Below are positions 52,261 through 64,000 of a stretch of 64,000 nt of DNA, in pieces; positions within the stretch are counted from its first letter, which is position 1; every line of letters starts with the position of its first letter. Origin of the DNA: Planctomycetia bacterium (lineage in GTDB: Bacteria > Planctomycetota > Phycisphaerae > UBA1845 > Fen-1342); the NCBI GenBank assembly GCA_015709575.1, contig CP054190.1, forward strand, positions 1,178,001 to 1,242,000, given 5' to 3'. The position numbers and the translations under genes were made by a program. The notes beneath the pieces are model-generated. The model was given only the letters and a program-made list of their open reading frames with translations, had not been told where the DNA came from and did no database searches.

Positions 52261-52333
52261 TGCGGGGTAGAGCAGTTGGCAGCTCGTCGGGCTCATAACC
52301 CGGAGGTCGCAGGTTCGAGTCCTGCCCCCGCTA
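52261..52333 (+). tRNA. Initiator tRNA-fMet (CAU)
   Basis: 73 bases, folding as a full cloverleaf. Anticodon CAT at 52294-52296. Initiator hallmarks: three consecutive G-C pairs at the base of the anticodon stem (GGG/CCC), an A-T pair at position 11:24, and no base pair at position 1:72 (T opposite T, where most bacteria have C-A). T arm GCAGG-TTCGAGT-CCTGC. The CCA tail is not encoded. The 3' half (from 52293) is also the antisense end of the serine recombinase gene, marking the integration site. Confidence 0.95.
52293..52333. other. Probable left attachment site of the integrated element
   Basis: The 41 bases shared by the tRNA 3' half and the recombinase C-terminus are the likely core of the attachment site: integration here keeps the tRNA intact, using element sequence as its new 3' end. 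No second copy of this tRNA segment was found up to 64000, so the right site is outside the window. Confidence 0.6.
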
Positions 52334-53906
52334 TTCCGGCCGCCGCAACTTCATCGGTTGCGGCGGTCTCTTTTTGGACCACCCGCCCGTTCGGCAGGAC
52401 CACCATCGGCCCGATGACCTCGGCGATGAACCGGTTGACTTGGGCGGGAGACATCAGCCCAGCGAAGTTGGCCTTGGCCTCCAGGAACGCCTGCCGGCAG
52501 TCGGCCATCAGGTCGTCCATATCGGCGACCGCCTGGACGGCCACCGATTCGAGCGCCTGCCGAAGCCCTTCCCTCTTTTCCTCGTGCTCGGCAATCTGCC
52601 GTGAGATCGACCGCTTGGCGAGCGGCTCAATCTCCGGATCGACCAGGACACGGATCAGGCCGGCGAGCGTCTTATCCACTTCCGCAATCTCGGCCTTAAG
52701 CCGTGACGATTCGTTCCGGTTCGCATCGAGCGCTTCCCGCGACATGGCCGCGACCTCATCGAGCACGCCGTCCATGTCCTCAAACACGGCGCCCATCGCC
52801 GCCTGAATGCGCGCCAGGAGCTTGTCCTCGCGGACCGACGCCGCGTTGCCGCAGGCCTCCGGCCCGTGCGACTGCCGCCGGCCGCAGGCGTAGTAGCGGT
52901 ACGAGCCCTTGGCGTTGCTGCTCTTGCGGGTGTAGTACACGCCGCCGCAGCCGGCACAGAACAGGTGGCGGGTGAACGGCCTGACCTCCGCCGCCTCGCG
53001 CGGACGGTCAATCCGGTTCGCCGCAAGCTGGGCCTGCGCCCGCTCGAACGTCTCATCGTCGATGATCCTGAGCGACTCATCGCGGTTCACGACATGCCGG
53101 CTCTCATCGGTCCAGCGAGGGACACGATGCCCGGTGGCGCGATCGAGCTTGAAGCAGCGCCGCAGGTAGCGGACTTCGCCGACCAGCATCGAGTTGGTGA
53201 GGATGCTCCTGATCGTCCCGAATCCCCACGGCCCGCCGAGCCGCGTCGGAACGCCGCGCTCCCGCACGCGACGAGCGACTTCCTTGAGTCCGATCGACTC
53301 CGCCAGATAGGTCTGGAACACGAAGCGGACCGTCTCCGCCTCTTCGGGATGAATCGCGAGCCGCTTCTTTCCGTCATCGGTTTGGACAATGCGGTAGCCG
53401 TAGGGCGGAGGCCCGCCTGTCCAGCAGCCTTCCCTGTGTCGCTGGACCAGCCCCTCGCGGGTCCGCTCCGCGAGCACGCGGCTGTAGTCCGCCGCGACGA
53501 CGAGCTGCACGCCGCGGGCGAGGGCGTTCGTCCCTTCGGTGACGCTCACCACCTCGACGCCGTGCTGTTCAAGATCCTCAACGAGGACGTGCGTTTCGGC
53601 CGCACGGCCGAGACGATCGTATTTGTAGACGTAGAGACGCTTGATGCGGCCCGCTTCCGCTTCCTCCATGAGCCGCAGGAGTTCCGTGCGGCCGCCCTTT
53701 GTCCGGCCGGTTTTCGCCTGATCGATGAAGTGCTTGAGCGGCCTTCCCGCCGCACGTTCGCACGACTCGATCTGCACGGCGATGCTCGTGCCGTCGTCCT
53801 GGGCGTGACTGGAATAGCGGGCGTAGAGGGCGTCGTACTTCCGGCTATCGCCGTTCGCCGATCCGCCGCGCCCGTTGGTCGCATGCTGTCGGAGTGCCGT
53901 CACCAT
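52293..53906 (-). CDS. Large serine recombinase (integrase of the tRNA-linked element)
   Basis: 537 residues. Resolvase domain with catalytic Ser in YARYSSHAQ (32-33), then YKYDRLGRAAE and SVTEGTNA; a recombinase domain (ERTREGLVQRHREGCWTGGPPPYGY); a zinc ribbon (CAGCGGVYYTR...YACGRRQ); then a long coiled coil. The last residues GAGLEPATSGL are antisense tRNA, and the stop codon is built from the anticodon loop. ATG 53906 has GGAGG 8 bases upstream. Serine integrases usually avoid tRNA genes, so the target choice is notable. Confidence 0.92.
   Translation of the reverse strand: MVTALRQHATNGRGGSANGDSRKYDALYARYSSHAQDDGTSIAVQIESCERAAGRPLKHFIDQAKTGRTKGGRTELLRLMEEAEAGRIKRLYVYKYDRLGRAAETHVLVEDLEQHGVEVVSVTEGTNALARGVQLVVAADYSRVLAERTREGLVQRHREGCWTGGPPPYGYRIVQTDDGKKRLAIHPEEAETVRFVFQTYLAESIGLKEVARRVRERGVPTRLGGPWGFGTIRSILTNSMLVGEVRYLRRCFKLDRATGHRVPRWTDESRHVVNRDESLRIIDDETFERAQAQLAANRIDRPREAAEVRPFTRHLFCAGCGGVYYTRKSSNAKGSYRYYACGRRQSHGPEACGNAASVREDKLLARIQAAMGAVFEDMDGVLDEVAAMSREALDANRNESSRLKAEIAEVDKTLAGLIRVLVDPEIEPLAKRSISRQIAEHEEKREGLRQALESVAVQAVADMDDLMADCRQAFLEAKANFAGLMSPAQVNRFIAEVIGPMVVLPNGRVVQKETAATDEVAAAGIAGAGLEPATSGL
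52340..52377 (+). terminator. Rho-independent terminator of the initiator tRNA
   Basis: A perfect 10-bp stem (CCGCCGCAAC at 52340-52349 with GTTGCGGCGG at 52357-52366), 7-base loop, then TCTCTTTTTGG. It starts 7 bases after the tRNA and reads in its direction. It lies inside the recombinase coding sequence on the other strand. Confidence 0.85.
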
Positions 53907-55969: not shown

Positions 55970-57469
55970 CTAGGCCCTCTGGTTGAACTGCACCGGGAGC
56001 CAGGTCCGGCCCGATGCCTTGAACACTCTTCCGTTCTGAAACACGATTCCGTCCACGATCCAGCCGTTGTCCGGCCCGCCCGTGCGCAGCCGGGTGAACT
56101 CGCGCGGCTCGACTTCCGCCTCCATGACTTCCGAGAATCCGCCGCTCGTGGTGCCGTTCTCCCGCGCCCAGTCGAGGCCGAGCAGCGCGCTCACCTGGTC
56201 GTCCGCCGGGTGCGAGTGATTGCCGCTCGCACGATATTGCAGCGTCCGCCCGATGAGACGGGAGGCCCATTCGTTCGTCTGGGGATCGCTGTTGGCGTGA
56301 AACACCTTCAGCCCGCAGTTTCCGAAGATGGAGTCCGCTTCGGCGCGCCCCTTGTCGCCGCCGCCGAGCGCGGCGTACACGCCCGGCACTCCCTGGGTCA
56401 GTAAGGCGCAACCGACTCGGGAGGACCGGCAGGCGGCAAGGAAGGCGGCGTCGCGCGAACTGGCAAACGTCTGGAACTCGTCACACCACAAGAAGACCGC
56501 GCGACTCGCGGCATCAATCCGTCTTCCCTCCATGCAGCGCTGCCAGCAATACTTGAGCACGGCATTGGCGATGACCCCTGTTTCGCGGTAGACCTGCGTC
56601 GGCAACCCGCAGACGATCACCGCGCCGTTCTCGCAGTCGCCGGGGGTGAGCGTGGTATCCGTGCCGAAGAGTTCGCGAAGAACGCTGCGCTGCATGGGGT
56701 CCAACTGGGAAGTCAGACAGGAGACCACGACCGATCGCGTCTTCGGCGATAACGTGCAGAACTCGCACAGCACGTAGTCGGCTACCAGCGCGAAGTCCTT
56801 CTCCTGCGAACTGTTCTTCGTGCGCTTGTCCGCCTCCGTCAGCAGCTTGAAGCAGAACGACGAGCTGCGCCATTGCTCGGAGCGGACATCATCGAGCGAC
56901 TGCGGGGCCGAGATCACCGCGCGGTAGAGGGCGTCGATGGTCACCGTGCCGGTCGCCAGGATCAGCAGGTCAACGAAGTTCCGGATGAGTTGCTTTGTCG
57001 CGCGCCGCCAATATGCTTCGTCATCGCGCGCCCCGCCGCTGTCTCCCTGGCGGTCCGCGCACTCGAGGATCGCTTCGAGCAAGCCGACCACATTTTCGGC
57101 GGCGCCGACCGCTCCCTCCCGAGCCAGTTCGTACGACACGGGGTTGAACCGCCAGGGGCCGCCAGGGCGCATGACCCGCAGATCCGCGGTGCGCCCTGTC
57201 GCGGCACAGTATTCTTCCCAGCGAAACACCTCGTCGCTTTTCGCACAGCACACGAGCATCCCGGCCTTGGCGTTCCCGAGCAGCCCGAGCGCCAGGGCGC
57301 GCCCGCTGCCGGTCGATTTACCAGCACCACTTGCGCCAACCACCAGGGAGTTCTCCGTAGCCATCCTCGCGGTATACACATCTTCCGCCGACCACCGCAC
57401 CACGGGCACCGACAGCGCGTCCGCAGCCTGACCCGCATGTGACCGACGTTTCTTGAAGAGTCCAAGCAT
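55970..57469 (-). CDS. TraG/VirD4-like type IV coupling ATPase
   Basis: 499 residues. Walker A GASGAGKST (45-53), MLVCCAKSDEVFRWEEYC, a central helical all-alpha insert, and Walker B/TraM-type LWCDEFQTFASSRD followed by FLAACRSSRVGCALLTQG. This matches the TraG/TraD/VirD4 coupling-protein core that pumps DNA-protein complexes to a type IV secretion pore. The N-terminal transmembrane domain is absent; a four-pass protein is encoded right downstream. No relaxase or pore genes are visible in the window. A role in some other DNA-translocation process is possible. Confidence 0.85.
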   Translation of the reverse strand: MLGLFKKRRSHAGQAADALSVPVVRWSAEDVYTARMATENSLVVGASGAGKSTGSGRALALGLLGNAKAGMLVCCAKSDEVFRWEEYCAATGRTADLRVMRPGGPWRFNPVSYELAREGAVGAAENVVGLLEAILECADRQGDSGGARDDEAYWRRATKQLIRNFVDLLILATGTVTIDALYRAVISAPQSLDDVRSEQWRSSSFCFKLLTEADKRTKNSSQEKDFALVADYVLCEFCTLSPKTRSVVVSCLTSQLDPMQRSVLRELFGTDTTLTPGDCENGAVIVCGLPTQVYRETGVIANAVLKYCWQRCMEGRRIDAASRAVFLWCDEFQTFASSRDAAFLAACRSSRVGCALLTQGVPGVYAALGGGDKGRAEADSIFGNCGLKVFHANSDPQTNEWASRLIGRTLQYRASGNHSHPADDQVSALLGLDWARENGTTSGGFSEVMEAEVEPREFTRLRTGGPDNGWIVDGIVFQNGRVFKASGRTWLPVQFNQRA

Positions 57470-57578: not shown

Positions 57579-58409
57579 CTACTTGCCGTTGCTTGAGATG
57601 ACCTTGATGACTTCCGCCAGTGGCCGCCCGTCCGCGCCCGCCGACCTGATCCGCTCCGCCAGGTCAGCGAGCCATGCGATGAGGCTCTCCACCGAAAGCG
57701 TCGGCGCCGACACCGAGACCGACCGTCCCTCACCGAGCGGGATGCTGACCCGCTCGCGCGGCGTGCGTGCCTTCCGAGTCGGCCGACGCGCCGATGCGCG
57801 CTGCGTTTCCAGTTCCTTGGCCCGCTGAATCACGTCGTCCCGAGTCAGGCCGCCGTTCACGGCCTGCTGGCAGAGCCGCTGCCGCTCCGCGGAGTCGGTG
57901 AGCTTGGCCAGTTCGTAGGCGGTGCTCATGCCCACCGCGCCCGAGGTCACCGCTGCCTGAACTTCTGCGGGAAGCACCGTGAGGGTGAGCAGCTTCGAGA
58001 TGCTCGCCGGGGACAGGCCGAGCTTGACCGCGACCTCGCGGGCGCACCATCCCGTTTCAGACATCAGCTTGTGGATCGCCGCGCCGCGTTCCATCGGAGA
58101 CAACCCCACGCGCTGGGCGTCCAGGACGAGCTGCCTGTGCAGCACATCGCCTTCGGAGAGGGCTTCCGACTCCACGATGACCGGCACTTCTGTCAGCCCG
58201 GCCTTGCGCGCCGCCCGAAGTCTGCGCTCGCCATCGAGGACGATGAGGGTGTCCCCCTCGCGGCGGACCAGCAGCGGCTGGAGAATGCCCGCCTCGCGGA
58301 TGCTCTGCGCCAGGCCGGCGAGTTCCTCCTCGCCGAACCCGGTGCGCTCGCGCACCTGCGGCCGGCAGACGAGGCGGTCGATGGGAACGCGGTCAATTCT
58401 GGTGGACAT
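57579..58409 (-). CDS. ParB/KorB-like DNA-binding protein
   Basis: 276 residues from ATG 58409. ParB N-terminal domain: IDRVPIDRLVCRPQVRE, AGLAQSIREAGILQPLLVRR and the CTP-pocket motif VLDGERRLRAARKAGL. A helix-turn-helix follows (TGWCAREVAVKLGLSPASISKLL). C-terminus (LSVESLIAWLADLAERIRSAG) may dimerise. No ParA is encoded in view, so it may act as a regulator or nucleation protein rather than in partition. Stop is 10 bases before the 27-residue peptide. Confidence 0.85.
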   Translation of the reverse strand: MSTRIDRVPIDRLVCRPQVRERTGFGEEELAGLAQSIREAGILQPLLVRREGDTLIVLDGERRLRAARKAGLTEVPVIVESEALSEGDVLHRQLVLDAQRVGLSPMERGAAIHKLMSETGWCAREVAVKLGLSPASISKLLTLTVLPAEVQAAVTSGAVGMSTAYELAKLTDSAERQRLCQQAVNGGLTRDDVIQRAKELETQRASARRPTRKARTPRERVSIPLGEGRSVSVSAPTLSVESLIAWLADLAERIRSAGADGRPLAEVIKVISSNGK

Positions 58410-58731
58410 CGCCCGCTCCTTTCGCGCGCTGCCGCAGTTCGGCCATTTCGATTTCGTCGAAGAGGTGCCGACTCTCGCGATCCTTGAGGGCCGATCGGCC
58501 CGTGAGGATTGCCCCGATGACGTAGAAGAGGTCATCGATCGGCAAGCCAGGCAGGAGGTCCAAGGGCGAACAAAGCAGTACGACCAGCCCAAACACCATC
58601 GCGTACTTGGTCAGCTCAAGGCCGACAGTGCGCAGGCGACTCGCCGGCAGGGCCAGGAGGATCAACATCGCCAGGAACAGCAGGGTGCTGCACCCGACGA
58701 ACACCTTGAGGAACGAGAAGAACTCTGCCAT
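58393..58731 (-). CDS. Small DUF1232-like membrane protein
   Basis: 112 residues from ATG 58731. Two hydrophobic segments (FFSFLKVFVGCSTLLFLAMLILLAL and YAMVFGLVVLLCSPLDLLPGLPIDDLFYVIGAI). The SPLDLLPGxPxDD pattern resembles the DUF1232 signature (SPIDLIPD...LDD). C-terminus is polar. It overlaps the ParB-like start by 17 bases, so the two are coupled. First gene of the minus-strand run. Confidence 0.68.
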   Translation of the reverse strand: MAEFFSFLKVFVGCSTLLFLAMLILLALPASRLRTVGLELTKYAMVFGLVVLLCSPLDLLPGLPIDDLFYVIGAILTGRSALKDRESRHLFDEIEMAELRQRAKGAGDVHQN

Positions 58732-59598: not shown

Positions 59599-59928
59599 TC
59601 ACGCCAACATCTCCGCCAGCACGCTGCCCGGAACCCAGTTGCTCCCCTTAAGCTCGGCCTCCGTGCTGAATCCGACCATCCGGTACGAGCAGCCGATCCG
59701 GCGCGGGGCGGATAGCCGACGCCGGAGCCGATCATGCACGATCGCTTGCGCCTCTTCCGCGTCGGGACTCCCGAGTCGGAGTTCCCGCAGCGGCCCGCCG
59801 ACCCGGCCATAGCGGACGGTGACGACCCAGTCGCCAAGCAAGTCCCGGCCGACCGAGACTTCGTACCGGCGGTGATGGTTCAGCTCATCGCTGTGCGCTT
59901 CGAGCGCGATGGTCAGGAGGTCGAGCAC
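59599..59928 (-). CDS. WGR-domain-like protein
   Basis: 109 residues. Core RYEVSVGRDLLGDWVVTVRYGRVGG is like the WGR domain (WSV...WGRIG) found in poly(ADP-ribose) polymerases and standalone bacterial proteins, followed by helix EEAQAIVHDRLRRRLS and IGCSYRMVG. WGR domains can bind DNA ends or 5'-phosphates. ATG 59928 lies 16 bases inside the resolvase 3' end, so the two are translated together. Confidence 0.7.
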   Translation of the reverse strand: MLDLLTIALEAHSDELNHHRRYEVSVGRDLLGDWVVTVRYGRVGGPLRELRLGSPDAEEAQAIVHDRLRRRLSAPRRIGCSYRMVGFSTEAELKGSNWVPGSVLAEMLA

Positions 59929-60500
59929 GCGGCCTCCGTCGCTTCGCTTTCCCGGAGGTACTGGTAGAGCGTCTCTCGGCTGATCCCGAACTCGCGGGCG
60001 AGCCGGGCTTTCTTCTCGCCGACGGCGGCGCGGGCGCGGAGTTCCTGCACCCGCTCCGGCGACAGCGCCCGCTTCCGTCCCCGGTAGACGCCGCGCTGCT
60101 TGGCCAGCGCGATGCCCTCGCGCTGCCGTTCCTTGATGAGGTCGCGCTCGAACTGTGCGACGGCGCCGAGCACCGTCAGCATCAGGTTCGCCATCGGCGA
60201 CTCCTCGCCGGTGAAGAGCAGGTTCTCTTTGATGAACTGGACGCGGATGCCGCGCTTGGTCTGTTCCTGGACGATGCGTCGAAGGTCGTCCACGTTGCGG
60301 GCCAGGCGGTCCATGCTGTGGACGACAATCATGTCGCCTTCTCTGGCGTAGGCGACGAGCGCCTTCAGTTCGGGACGGTCAGTGTCTTTTCCGGAGGCCG
60401 CGTCGGTGAACACGCGGTCGAGTTGCACGCCTTCGAGTTGCCGCTCCGCGTTCTGATCGTACGAACTGACCCTGACGTACCCGATCCGTTGACCCTTCCC
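59913..60500 (-). CDS. Tn3-type resolvase, 5' end removed by transposon insertion
   Basis: The frame from 60500 reads GKGQRIGYVRVSSYDQN, the full catalytic N-terminus (Ser in VRVS), then QLDRVFTDAASGKD, VVHSMDRLARNVDDLRR, ESPMANLMLTVLGAVAQFE and a C-terminal HTH (VGEKKARLAREFGISRETLYQYL). But no start codon remains: a TGA overlaps the transposon end at 60504-60506, and the first usable GTG (60428) lies past the catalytic Ser. The gene probably lost only its first few codons. It may still be made if some alternative start exists. Confidence 0.82.
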   Translation of the reverse strand, partial: GKGQRIGYVRVSSYDQNAERQLEGVQLDRVFTDAASGKDTDRPELKALVAYAREGDMIVVHSMDRLARNVDDLRRIVQEQTKRGIRVQFIKENLLFTGEESPMANLMLTVLGAVAQFERDLIKERQREGIALAKQRGVYRGRKRALSPERVQELRARAAVGEKKARLAREFGISRETLYQYLRESEATEAACSTS

Positions 60501-60501
60501 C

Positions 60502-60525
60502 TGTCATAACTCGAAGTGCACTTCA
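60502..60525 (+). repeat. Left terminal inverted-repeat end of the tni transposon
   Basis: TGTCATAACTCGAAGTGCAC begins exactly where the resolvase frame is broken. Tn402/Tn5053-family ends start TGTCATTT-, so TGTCA fits. A second TGTCATACTCCGCC copy at 60557 may be an internal transposase-binding repeat. A possible 5-bp target duplication is TCCCC (60497-60501). A weak promoter for tniA (TTGCCA 60530, TAGTGT 60554) lies between. The matching right end is not in the window. Confidence 0.6.
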
Positions 60526-60637
60526 CAGATTGCCATTGATTTGTCTCGCTTTCTAGTGTCATACTCCGCCGCATAACCTGCCTCAGTCGGTTGCACTGGC
60601 CAGCAGATTATCGCAGTCCTATTCAGCAGCGGACCCC

Positions 60638-62272
60638 ATGACCGACATCGCGCTCATAGAGGAAAAGGCCTGGATCGAGGCGCGCCGCCGGGCGGAGCTT
60701 ATCCGACCGCTGGTAGAGATGACGCGGTGCCCCAGACGGATGGTGAGTGCCGCCGCCCAGGCACTGGGATTGTCTGAGCGGCAAGTGTATGACTTGATCA
60801 GGCGCTGCCGGCTGAGCGACGGGACGGTGTCGGCGCTGGTTCCGAAGATGTCCAGCGGCGGACGCGGCAAGTCGAGACTGAGCCGCGCCCGGGAGCAGGT
60901 GCTTCGACAGATTATCGATCAGGTGTACCTTACGGGCCAGCGCGTCACGCCGCAGGTGTTGATTCGGGAGGTCCGTCATCACTGCGCGAGAAACGGCATG
61001 CCCGCGCCGGCTGCAAGCACGATACGCCGACGGTTGAAGCACCTCAGTCCCGATGATCGGCGCAAACGTGGCGAGAGCGCCCAAGTCAAGCCCGCAGCCG
61101 GAATGACCCCGATCCCGCAATTCCCGCTTGACCTTTTGCAACTGGATCACACGAAGGTGGATGTCATCATTGTCGATCCTGTGGATCGCAAGCCGATCGG
61201 CAGGCCGTGGCTTAGCGTGGCCATCGACGTGCACAGCCGATGCATCGCCGGGATGCACCTGTCACTGGAAAGCCCTTCGGCCACGTCCGTTGGGCTGTGT
61301 CTGGTGCATGTCGCCACGGAGAAGACATCCTGGCTTGAAGGGCGTGGCATTGATGCCGAGTGGCCGATTGCCGGAAAGCCGCGAGCCATCGCCGTGGACA
61401 ACGGAGCCGAGTTCCACAGCGCCGCGTTTGAGCGCGGATGCGCGCAGCACGGCATCGCCATCCACTGGCGCCCGCCGGGTCAGCCGCATTTCGGGGGCAT
61501 TGTGGAGCGCGTGATCGGCACGCTGATGCAGCAGGTGCATGAGCTGCCGGGGACGACCTTCTCGAATCCGGCCACTCGCAGGGGGTACGACAGCGACGGC
61601 ACCGCCTGCCTGACGCTTCAGGAATTGGAGCATTGGCTCACGATTGCGATCGCTCGCATTTACCACCAGCGTTCGCACGCCGGGCTTGGCGGCGAGACGC
61701 CGATAGCGCGTTTCCGGGAGGGCATGCGGACGATGAAGCAAGAGGGGCGGAGCCTGCCGGTCGTGCAGAATGCACAGGCGTTCCTCATTGATTTCTTGCC
61801 GATTTACCGGCGCACGCTGCAACGCGCGGGAATCACGATTGACTACATCACCTACTACAGCAACGGCCTCAAGCCCTGGATCGCGCGCCGGTCGGAACTG
61901 GGCCCGCTGTTGGTGCGGCGCGATCCCAGGGATCTGAGCCGCGTCTACGTTCTGAACGACGAGACCGAAGGCTACCTGGAGGTGCCGTATCGCGATCTGG
62001 CGCGCCCGGCAGTGACGTTGTGGGAGCATCGGCTTGCCGTGCGGCGGCTGCGAGAGCAGAACCGGCATGCCATTGATGAGATGGCTCTGTTTCGCGCGAT
62101 CGAAGAGCTGCGCGCCATTGAGCGCCGTGCGGCGGCGACGACGAAGACCGCCCGTCGCAACCATGCGCGCCGGCAGCCTGCGGAGCAACCGGTCCCCGCC
62201 CGGAAAACGCCCGTGGCCCCGGTGACCGCGCCGGTCGCCGCGTCGCCCTTTGCCGAGATAGAGGAATGGTGA
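60638..62272 (+). CDS. tniA: Transposase TniA (DDE family)
   Basis: 544 residues. N-terminal helix-turn-helix region (MVSAAAQALGLSERQVYDLIRR), then an RNase H-like integrase core with Asp170 in LLQLDHTKVD, Asp254 in AVDNGAEFHS and Glu290 in GGIVERVIG, forming the DDE triad. C-terminal beta-barrel (LVRRDPRDLSRVYVLNDET) and a basic tail. Cuts and joins the transposon ends with TniB. All catalytic residues are present and the length matches Tn5053 TniA, so it should be active. Confidence 0.95.
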   Translation: MTDIALIEEKAWIEARRRAELIRPLVEMTRCPRRMVSAAAQALGLSERQVYDLIRRCRLSDGTVSALVPKMSSGGRGKSRLSRAREQVLRQIIDQVYLTGQRVTPQVLIREVRHHCARNGMPAPAASTIRRRLKHLSPDDRRKRGESAQVKPAAGMTPIPQFPLDLLQLDHTKVDVIIVDPVDRKPIGRPWLSVAIDVHSRCIAGMHLSLESPSATSVGLCLVHVATEKTSWLEGRGIDAEWPIAGKPRAIAVDNGAEFHSAAFERGCAQHGIAIHWRPPGQPHFGGIVERVIGTLMQQVHELPGTTFSNPATRRGYDSDGTACLTLQELEHWLTIAIARIYHQRSHAGLGGETPIARFREGMRTMKQEGRSLPVVQNAQAFLIDFLPIYRRTLQRAGITIDYITYYSNGLKPWIARRSELGPLLVRRDPRDLSRVYVLNDETEGYLEVPYRDLARPAVTLWEHRLAVRRLREQNRHAIDEMALFRAIEELRAIERRAAATTKTARRNHARRQPAEQPVPARKTPVAPVTAPVAASPFAEIEEW

Positions 62273-63177
62273 TCGCCGGCGACGGCCTCTCCCACTTGCT
62301 TCCGTCGGCGCGGGAGATCGCCGCGCTGCCGGCGGACGAGCGATTGAACAGGCTGCCGCTCCATCACTGGATCGGTTATCCCGCCGCCCAGGCGGCCGTG
62401 GCGAAGCTTGAAGGGATGATCGCCCAGCCGCCCGCTCTGCGGCCGGCCAACCTTCTCATCGTGGGGCCAAGCAACAACGGCAAGACGATGATCGCGGAGC
62501 GTTGCCGGCGCCTGCATCCGGCCCGCACGTCCGTCGATGGCGAGCACCAGGTCATCCCGGTGCTCGTCATGCAGATGCCGCCGGCGCCATCGGCCCGACG
62601 CTTCTATAGCGCCCTGCTGGCCGCCCTGGGGGCGCCGCTATGGGCCAACGGTTCCATGGACCTTCGCGAGCAGATGACCTGTCGGATCATGCGCAAGGTC
62701 GGCGTGCGGCTCCTCATCATCGACGAGCTGCACAACATACTGGCCGGGCGCCCCGGTCAGGTGCGCGAGTGCCAGAATCTCCTGCGGTTCCTCGGCAACG
62801 AGCTGCGCATCCCGATCGCCGGCCTCGGCACGAAGGAAGCCTACCTCGCCATTCGTTCCGACGACCAGCTGGAGAACCGCTTCGAGCCGTTCCTGCTTCC
62901 GCGCTGGACAGACGGCGCAGAACTGGCCAGGTTGCTGATGAGCTTCGAGGCGATCCTGCCGCTTAAGGAGCCGTCCAACCTGGCGTCGCCCGAACTGCGG
63001 ACGCCGATACTGCAACGTTCCGAAGGCACGATCGGCGAGATGTCAGCGCTGCTGGTTGCGGCCACCCGGGCAGCCCTGGAGCGGGGTTGCGAGCGCATCG
63101 ACCTGGATCTCCTGGCGGCGGCTGACTACCTGCCGCCAACGGAACGGCGGCGCCAGTTCGAAGCGTCCCTGCAATGA
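62266..63177 (+). CDS. tniB: Transposition ATPase TniB
   Basis: 303 residues. The ATG overlaps the tniA end by 7 bases. AAA+ ATPase: Walker A VGPSNNGKTM (66-75), Walker B LLIIDELHNIL, sensor NLLRFLGNELRIPIAGLGT and the arginine-rich end. It works like MuB/TnsC: loading at target DNA and recruiting TniA. Complete and of normal length. Confidence 0.94.
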   Translation: MVIAGDGLSHLLPSAREIAALPADERLNRLPLHHWIGYPAAQAAVAKLEGMIAQPPALRPANLLIVGPSNNGKTMIAERCRRLHPARTSVDGEHQVIPVLVMQMPPAPSARRFYSALLAALGAPLWANGSMDLREQMTCRIMRKVGVRLLIIDELHNILAGRPGQVRECQNLLRFLGNELRIPIAGLGTKEAYLAIRSDDQLENRFEPFLLPRWTDGAELARLLMSFEAILPLKEPSNLASPELRTPILQRSEGTIGEMSALLVAATRAALERGCERIDLDLLAAADYLPPTERRRQFEASLQ

Positions 63178-63557
63178 CCGCGCCGACGGATAGCTACCCG
63201 ATCGATCTTCAGCCGCCGGCGCCGCCGGCGATACGCTGGCCGCTGCATCCCCCGCCGTACCGTCTGGAGTTGCTTAACGAATGGATCGCGCGACTCGCGC
63301 AAGACTACGGCGTCACGGCCACGCTCTTCTGCCGTCACGTGCTCTCCGTGACGCCGCCCTTGCCTGATACGATCCCCGATCACGCACAACGGACGCTGGC
63401 GATGGGAGCCGGCATCGAGCTCGACTGCGTGCGGCGGATGACGCTTGCAGGGATGATGCGGGAGGTCATGGCGGAGGTTGAGCGGACGTGCAAGACGAAC
63501 CCGCAGGCGGTACATGCGTTCACTCGGAAACTGCGGCCGGCGGCACCGCAGGCATGA
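63174..63557 (+). pseudogene. tniQ: Truncated TniQ (N-terminal third)
   Basis: 127 residues, ATG overlapping the tniB stop (ATGA). The N-terminal TniQ pattern is present: WPLHPPPYRLELLNEWIARLA, HAQRTLAMGAGIELDCVRRMTL. TniQ of the family is about 400 residues with a zinc-finger region. Right after the stop, in the next frame (63554-63625), RALRWIEAGQYCPLLRC resembles the family's RQYCPLC finger region, as if a frameshift followed by deletion broke the gene. TniQ guides target choice, so this copy may move poorly unless helped in trans. Confidence 0.68.
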
Positions 63558-63687
63558 CTGCCCGCGCTTTGAGGTGGATCGAGGCCGGACAATACTGCCC
63601 ACTTCTGCGGTGTTCTTCCGCACGTTAACGGTTCTTTCAGTCTTTCCCAGTACAGTGCGGCTCCATCATAACTAGATGGAGTTCATT

Positions 63688-64000
63688 ATGCACCCTCGCC
63701 GCCTCCTACCCCTGTGTCTGATCCTCTTTGTGCTGTGCATGCTCCCGCTATCCCAGGCCGCTGCCTTCAGCGCGTTCATTTCAAATGCGGGCTCCAATAC
63801 CGTATCAGTGATCGACACCGGCACCAACTCTGTCACTGCGACCATTTCAGGCGGCGACACGCCTTACGGCGTGGCCGTCAGCCCTGACGGCGGGACTGTG
63901 TACGTCACCAACCACGGAGACGATAGCGTGTCAGTCATCAGTGCGGCCACAAACTCGGTATCCGCCACAATCACGCTGGCATCCGGTGCCCATCCCGTAG
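63688..64000 (+). CDS. YVTN beta-propeller secreted protein (partial, 3' end outside)
   Basis: The frame starts at ATG 63688, preceded by GGAG 6 bases upstream (ATG 63676 is in frame but lacks a site). Signal peptide ([21 protein letters not shown]), then [40 protein letters not shown] and [17 protein letters not shown]: the YVTN repeat of six- or seven-bladed propellers. It continues past 64000. The first bases around 63600-63690 are AT-richer than the tni genes. Likely cargo or the next host gene. Confidence 0.78.

Follow-up and report, generated by a model that had tools for sequence, protein, structure and literature searches.

Transposons of the Tn5053/Tn402 (Tn5090) type are known as res-site hunters. 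They carry tniA-tniB-tniQ in this order together with a separate internal resolvase of the TniR type, end in sequences of about 25 bp beginning TGTCA, and insert with 5-bp duplications in or next to a res site served by a different resolvase, either of the Tn21/Tn1721 type or plasmid-borne. In the prototypes the end nearest the target resolvase gene is IRo, IRt being the tniA end, and the insertion is flanked by 5-bp repeats (PMC7765201). Insertion falls mostly between boxes I and II of res, sometimes inside a box (PMC12217951), and TniQ is presumed, but only presumed, to recognise the target (PMC11406308). The gene order, ends, duplications, place of insertion and internal resolvase are all found again in a tni transposon that begins within a 64,000-nucleotide stretch of DNA, referred to here as the window (G000:C1:1178001-1242000 of a single-contig 3.89-Mb genome). 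Very probably this is a res-site hunter from the short-TniQ sister clade of Tn5053/Tn402 and has inserted beside a Tn21/Tn1721-type res on a conjugation-type integrative element of a planctomycete-type bacterium.

A related arrangement is described for the In104 integron of Salmonella genomic island 1, where a 5-bp-flanked insertion of the res-hunter type likewise parts the resolvase gene of an integrated element from part of res (PMC12217951); at the present locus, in contrast, res is uncut and the gene itself is hit.

Boundaries of the element and the interrupted resolvase gene

The contig is readable past position 64000, and the continuation (L005 and L008, together genome positions 1236001-1262000) is given in extended window coordinates, the window coordinate being the L005 coordinate plus 58000. 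The element measures 9,309 bp (extended window 60502-69810; L005 2502-11810). The features at its left junction are as follows.

59913..60501, minus strand: target resolvase gene (Tn21/Tn1721-type serine resolvase), 5'-truncated; from PF00239 and helix-turn-helix (HTH_7) matches, translation and homology to intact paralogues
60497..60501, no strand: target site duplication TCCCC, left copy, with an exact 5-bp copy at the far end
60502..60526, plus strand: left terminal inverted repeat, tniA end (IRt), TGTCATAACTCGAAGTGCACTTCAC
60502..64000, plus strand: in-window part of the tni transposon, both ends and the duplication being located on the contig

The minus-strand frame of the target resolvase reads QGKGQRIGYVRVSSYDQN... 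from 60501 to 59913 and carries GQRIGYVRVSSYDQN. As stated in a preliminary description of this DNA, the codon for the catalytic serine is retained with no start codon ahead of it, and the end of the tni element lies directly at the resolvase start. Pfam matches identify the genes that follow as tniA, tniB and tniQ. The bases GTGTC are missing from the truncated gene, the next possible start is a GTG at 60428, and the transposon end supplies an in-frame TGA one codon ahead of the kept resolvase codons (CEVHFEL*QGKGQRIGYV). Because the gene has no start codon, is preceded by an in-frame stop and is cut from its promoter region, the target resolvase should be inactive. A search of the genome DNA with this gene returned two close copies with 86% identity, and both alignments end at 60501, the last base before TGTCATAAC; beyond it the paralogues continue with CCCCGACAC and the window with CCCCTGTCATAAC. 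Both paralogues are complete genes, starting GTG TCG GGG AAG GGG.

The missing sequence was located past the window, where the preliminary description had placed an inverted TGACA end followed by TCCCC. The right junction reads TCTGACA/TCCCC/GACAC at extended window 69810/69811, and the 26 kb downstream contain a single copy of CCCCGACAC, which lies at L005 11812 within TGGTGTCTGACA/TCCCC/GACACCTTCCC. In reverse complement the right end reads TGTCAGACACCAAAGTGCTCTTCAG and is identical to the left end at 18 of the terminal 25 nt, the best position in the downstream 26 kb (the runner-up matches at 16). The inverted ends, 25 bp long and beginning TGTCA, are imperfect. Within the window no perfect second copies of the left end were found above chance, nor were tandem repeats found at the left end.

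The TCCCC duplication, at first put forward as a possibility, is exact at both flanks and spans nucleotides 6-10 of the coding sequence, that is, resolvase codons 2-4. Joining the flanks with one TCCCC gives an unbroken sequence, VSGKGQRIGYVRVSSYDQNAERQLEG..., in which the resolvase start is restored as GTG TCG GGG AAG GGT and an uninterrupted resolvase open reading frame, VSGKGQRIGYVRVSS..., follows. The resolvase N-terminus thus lies on the far side as expected, although the restored start codon is GTG and not the ATG that had been anticipated. Relatives without the transposon exist as well: empty sites with a single copy of the junction are present at the two paralogous loci of the same genome (L006 and L007) and in another genome of the same order (G036).

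An intact three-box res, likewise foreseen, lies beyond the far end. Some 140 bp past the far duplication are 80% identical to the paralogues, and an alignment of four copies (this locus, L006, L007 and G036) displays three conserved blocks in the manner of Tn21/Tn1721; the box limits are our reading of this alignment.

Extended window 69833-69856: res box III, GATGTCATAGACCTTTCCTGACAG
Extended window 69866-69902: res box II, CTGTCAGAGTAGAGTCGCTTCAAGTATTTGTTGACAG
Extended window 69923-69952: res box I, TGTCAGGTTGGGGTCTACCCCAGCCTGATG

Boxes II and III are recognisable ahead of the tnpR gene that a Tn3-family transposon carries on a plasmid of E. coli, and the TnpR of this transposon is 71.5% identical in amino acid sequence to the resolvase of the intact paralogue L007. 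In both resolvase and res boxes the locus resembles the TnpR-res systems of the Tn21/Tn1721 subgroup, but it forms part not of a Tn3-family transposon but of an integrative element, which encodes a large serine recombinase, ParB and proteins of the TraG-like and TrwC types. The insertion point is 17 bp past box III, so that res is left uncut and the resolvase gene broken; the uncut res could be used in trans. As a separate observation, L006 and L007 lose their homology to each other halfway through box I (near position 4512 of L006 and at the corresponding place in L007), as would be expected if these res sites had recombined with other res sites.

Relatives with a short TniQ and where they insert

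Three transposition genes follow the left end.

60638..62272, plus strand: tniA, DDE transposase, 544 amino acids (Pfam Mu-transpos_C 8.5e-10, rve 1.4e-6)
62266..63177, plus strand: tniB, AAA ATPase, 303 amino acids (PF05621 1.7e-64)
63174..63557, plus strand: tniQ, short form with the N-terminal domain only, 127 amino acids (PF06527 3.1e-6)

TniA occurs once in this genome, is absent from the 60 relatives searched and has distant homologues in only 3 of 391 other genomes of the phylum; given the single copy and this near-absence, the element was very probably acquired from outside. Its close relatives are proteobacterial tni elements (52-60% amino acid identity), and among viral contigs one distant relative only was found. 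In a tree of 53 TniA proteins the short-TniQ elements group apart from the long-TniQ ones with support of 100/98, and the present TniA falls in this sister clade, not inside the Tn5053/Tn402 clade. It forms the first branch within the short-TniQ group, on a long branch whose exact placement is unsure.

The short TniQ is a feature of the whole clade, in which its length is about 98-135 amino acids. It aligns with the first ~115 residues of the 405-residue TniQ of the Tn5053 type, with which it has the motif WPLHP in common, whereas the CPLC...CPLHG region is missing; the TniQ of Tn5053/Tn402 (~405 amino acids) thus differs from the one-domain protein in its Cys-rich motifs as well as in length. 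Matches of the TniQ sequence to solved structures did not rise above chance. The structural model has a predicted local distance difference test score (pLDDT) of 85, and its best fold match in the PDB, 8bd5 TniQ, is not significant at E 0.68 (the comparison being with the TniQ of a Scytonema type V-K CRISPR transposon). No description of the short-TniQ clade was found in the literature searched, which is not proof of novelty as most subscription papers lay outside the search.

The nearest counterparts are the short-TniQ elements L028-L048 (from Methylobacter, Legionella, Erythrobacter, Sphingomonas, Palleronia and others), which have a TniA 50-60% identical, a short TniQ and often a resolvase adjoining the tniA end. 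In most of them tniR directly follows tniQ, whereas in the present element it is encoded on the opposite strand, close to the right end. This element branches most deeply of all, and every other one found is proteobacterial.

The left end of every short-TniQ locus was mapped, and a serine resolvase was counted as neighbouring when it lay within 170 bp of an end. Sixteen elements have such a resolvase outside the tniA end, 12 with a short TniQ (L005, L023, L031, L032, L034, L039, L040, L041, L043, L046, L109 and L111) and four with a long one (L107, L115, L119 and L120); in six it lies outside the other end, two being short-TniQ (L022, L036) and four long-TniQ (L027, L113, L116, L117). In all 22 the 5' end of the resolvase faces the element. 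The idea that only the short-TniQ clade turns its tniA end toward the resolvase was rejected, given the counts of 4 against 4 among long-TniQ and 12 against 2 among short-TniQ elements. Exact 5-bp duplications accompany the tniA-end cases L005, L032, L046, L107, L115 and L120 and, at the other end, L113. The distance from the resolvase to the tniA end falls into two zones, one of 2-13 bp (L005, L031, L034, L043) and one of 50-90 bp (the rest, except L023 at 165).

A second, independent case of the geometry seen here is provided by Erythrobacter colymbi (L043), where a 5,540-bp element likewise splits a resolvase at its N-terminus, the duplication matching at 4 of 5 positions. The start codon and MTGTLIG lie on the far side, and ATGACCGGGACTTTGATCG from the far flank with GATATGCCCGCTGC from the near flank rebuild MTGTLIGYARCSTDK. 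In Methylobacter (L028) an exact duplication, GTCAG, lies in res-like sequence with no resolvase gene nearby. Among the more distant tniA loci (L058-L106) there is one upstream resolvase within 4 kb, at a distance of 2 kb. On one contig of Sphingomonas hominis, the flanking duplications of two copies (L039/L040) are interchanged (CGTGG/GTTCG), which indicates that the copies have recombined with each other.

From the position of the insertion and from these relatives we infer that resolvase-bound res served as the targeting signal. Resolvase sitting on res, probably on box III, the one nearest the insertion, would have guided TniA, TniB and TniQ. Resolution of the cointegrate would then have fallen to the TniR of the element itself or to resolvase supplied by the two intact paralogues. 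Several points weigh against this reading. The tniA end (IRt), not IRo as in Tn5053/Tn402, abuts the target resolvase; codons 2-4 past box III were hit, not the spacer between boxes I and II; and although 14 of the 27 short-TniQ loci whose left flank extends for 400 bp or more have a resolvase at one end, the other 13 have none at either end, so that insertion elsewhere also happens or the target has been lost. In addition, several of the surveyed loci are near-copies (e.g. L107/L119, L032/L111, L040/L041), and the 22 cases may therefore represent 10-15 independent events.

That the transposon fell by chance, untargeted, into the start of a resolvase gene is worth weighing but unlikely. The same 13 loci speak for it, and a title cited in PMC12217951 and PMC7765201 reports rare movement of Tn502 and Tn512 to random sites without resolvase. 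Yet only three resolvase/res loci of this kind lie outside the element in 3.89 Mb, which with zones of ~200 bp puts the chance of such a hit at ~1.5e-4. Moreover, orientation at random would produce the uniform facing of the 22 resolvases with a probability of about one in four million, were they all independent, and still of only about one in a thousand with ten independent cases. Very probably, then, a res-site hunter has inserted here in nature, as the preliminary description had proposed. The targeting it had ascribed to a Tn402/Tn5053-type element is supported as regards insertion at res but not as regards the textbook prototype, from which the end orientation, the position relative to the boxes and the length of TniQ all depart. 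Further differences from Tn5053/Tn402 are that the target resolvase is destroyed, that neither mer nor an integron is present, and that the host is of planctomycete type.

Resolvases and cargo inside the element

The remaining genes of the element follow tniQ in the order beta-propeller, possible methyltransferase, WGR gene, a resolvase copy without the active-site serine, and a TniR-type resolvase; a FitA-like/PIN toxin-antitoxin pair lies near the right end.

63676..64000, plus strand, continuing beyond the window (L005:5676-7541): cargo beta-propeller (YNCE-like) gene
Extended window 67281-67868 (L005:9281-9868), minus strand: intact-frame 196-codon resolvase copy of the same type as the target

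One in-frame TAG (L005:6255-6257) splits the beta-propeller gene, the halves being in the same frame. The WGR gene inside the transposon is a degenerate second copy of the WGR gene of the host element.

The presence of two resolvase-like genes near the right end recalls that tni elements do carry resolvases, and the interrupted gene might in principle be another component of the transposon, truncated by something else. This is most improbable: the target resolvase lies outside both ends and both copies of the duplication, with its N-terminus beyond the right copy, and a TniR-type serine resolvase with its catalytic serine is already inside the element, close to the right end and on the opposite strand, no res of its own being located. 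Paralogues without any tni gene, furthermore, have the same gene with its res, and these empty sites refute the component reading; the earlier statement that the resolvase is the target, not TniR, is upheld. A misassembly or rearrangement in place of transposition is just as improbable, for although the genome is a single contig of unknown assembly method with repeats between the two resolvase/WGR copies (79.8%), an exact 5-bp duplication, terminal inverted repeats and a base-exact empty site are not expected from such an artefact.

The serine-less internal copy is 63% identical to the paralogue L007, with a nearly identical helix-turn-helix part. It reads GYVYVGVGD and RMAGLARN where L007 has GYVRVSSYD and SMDRLARN, and has lost the active-site serine; in what we take to be gamma-delta numbering the changes are R8 to Y, S10 to G, D67 to A and R68 to G. 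Its ratio of non-synonymous to synonymous substitution rates (dN/dS) against the intact paralogues is 0.27-0.33, compared with 0.13-0.18 among intact copies. The frame is open despite 164-174 nucleotide differences from the intact paralogues, and when an equally long frame was given 100 random substitutions in a simple simulation, it survived in ~5% of runs. No other full-length internal resolvase without the serine was found in the surveyed tni elements; L118, flagged as such, was rejected because it reads ARIS and keeps the serine. It is conceivable, if rather improbable, that the copy might bind res without recombining it, guiding TniB/TniQ there or protecting the element from resolution. 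It could equally be cargo on the way to decay, its C-terminal similarity being maintained by gene conversion.

The integrative element and its host

The interrupted gene belongs to a larger mobile element, of which the following genes lie to the left of the insertion.

52293..53906, minus strand: large serine recombinase, likely integrase of the host element
55970..57469, minus strand: TraG/VirD4-like coupling protein gene of the host element (PF12696)
57579..58592, minus strand: ParB-like gene of the host element (PF02195, PF17762)
59599..59928, minus strand: WGR-domain gene (PF05406), overlapping the 3' end of the target resolvase gene; part of the host element, not of the transposon

On the far side of the insertion lies a TrwC-type relaxase-helicase gene, homologous to those beside both paralogues, and each of the three resolvase loci has one large serine recombinase of its own within 9 kb. 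The shared neighbours and the separate recombinases place the target on one of three related conjugation-type integrative elements. Among the genes examined, no tnpA adjoins the target-type resolvases. In both copies at this locus (59599-59928; L005:8967-9293) the resolvase gene is overlapped or followed by a WGR gene. The same resolvase-WGR pair occurs on a Methylomonas plasmid (L111, 7916-8146) that has a member of the clade inserted at the resolvase, although this resolvase is only 35% identical. A tandem-repeat gene with units of ~123 bp (TPxxxRxAxxxPSDPKGFLRKV) is found at L005 12388-13486 and L006 12720-13045, and thus in more than one related element. The assignment to a planctomycete-type genome agrees with the 16S gene, which matches the EUB338-II site exactly, a site which we take to mark Planctomycetes.

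Res-site hunting is known from a few proteobacterial transposons, which spread mercury and antibiotic resistance. What the present locus adds is this known targeting habit, very probably, in a sister clade with a one-domain TniQ and in another phylum. The end turned toward the resolvase is the opposite one, and insertions recur in a second zone, at the start of the resolvase gene. Should targeting indeed be at work, the minimal TniQ, the range of resolvases accepted and the orientation rule would all be directly testable.
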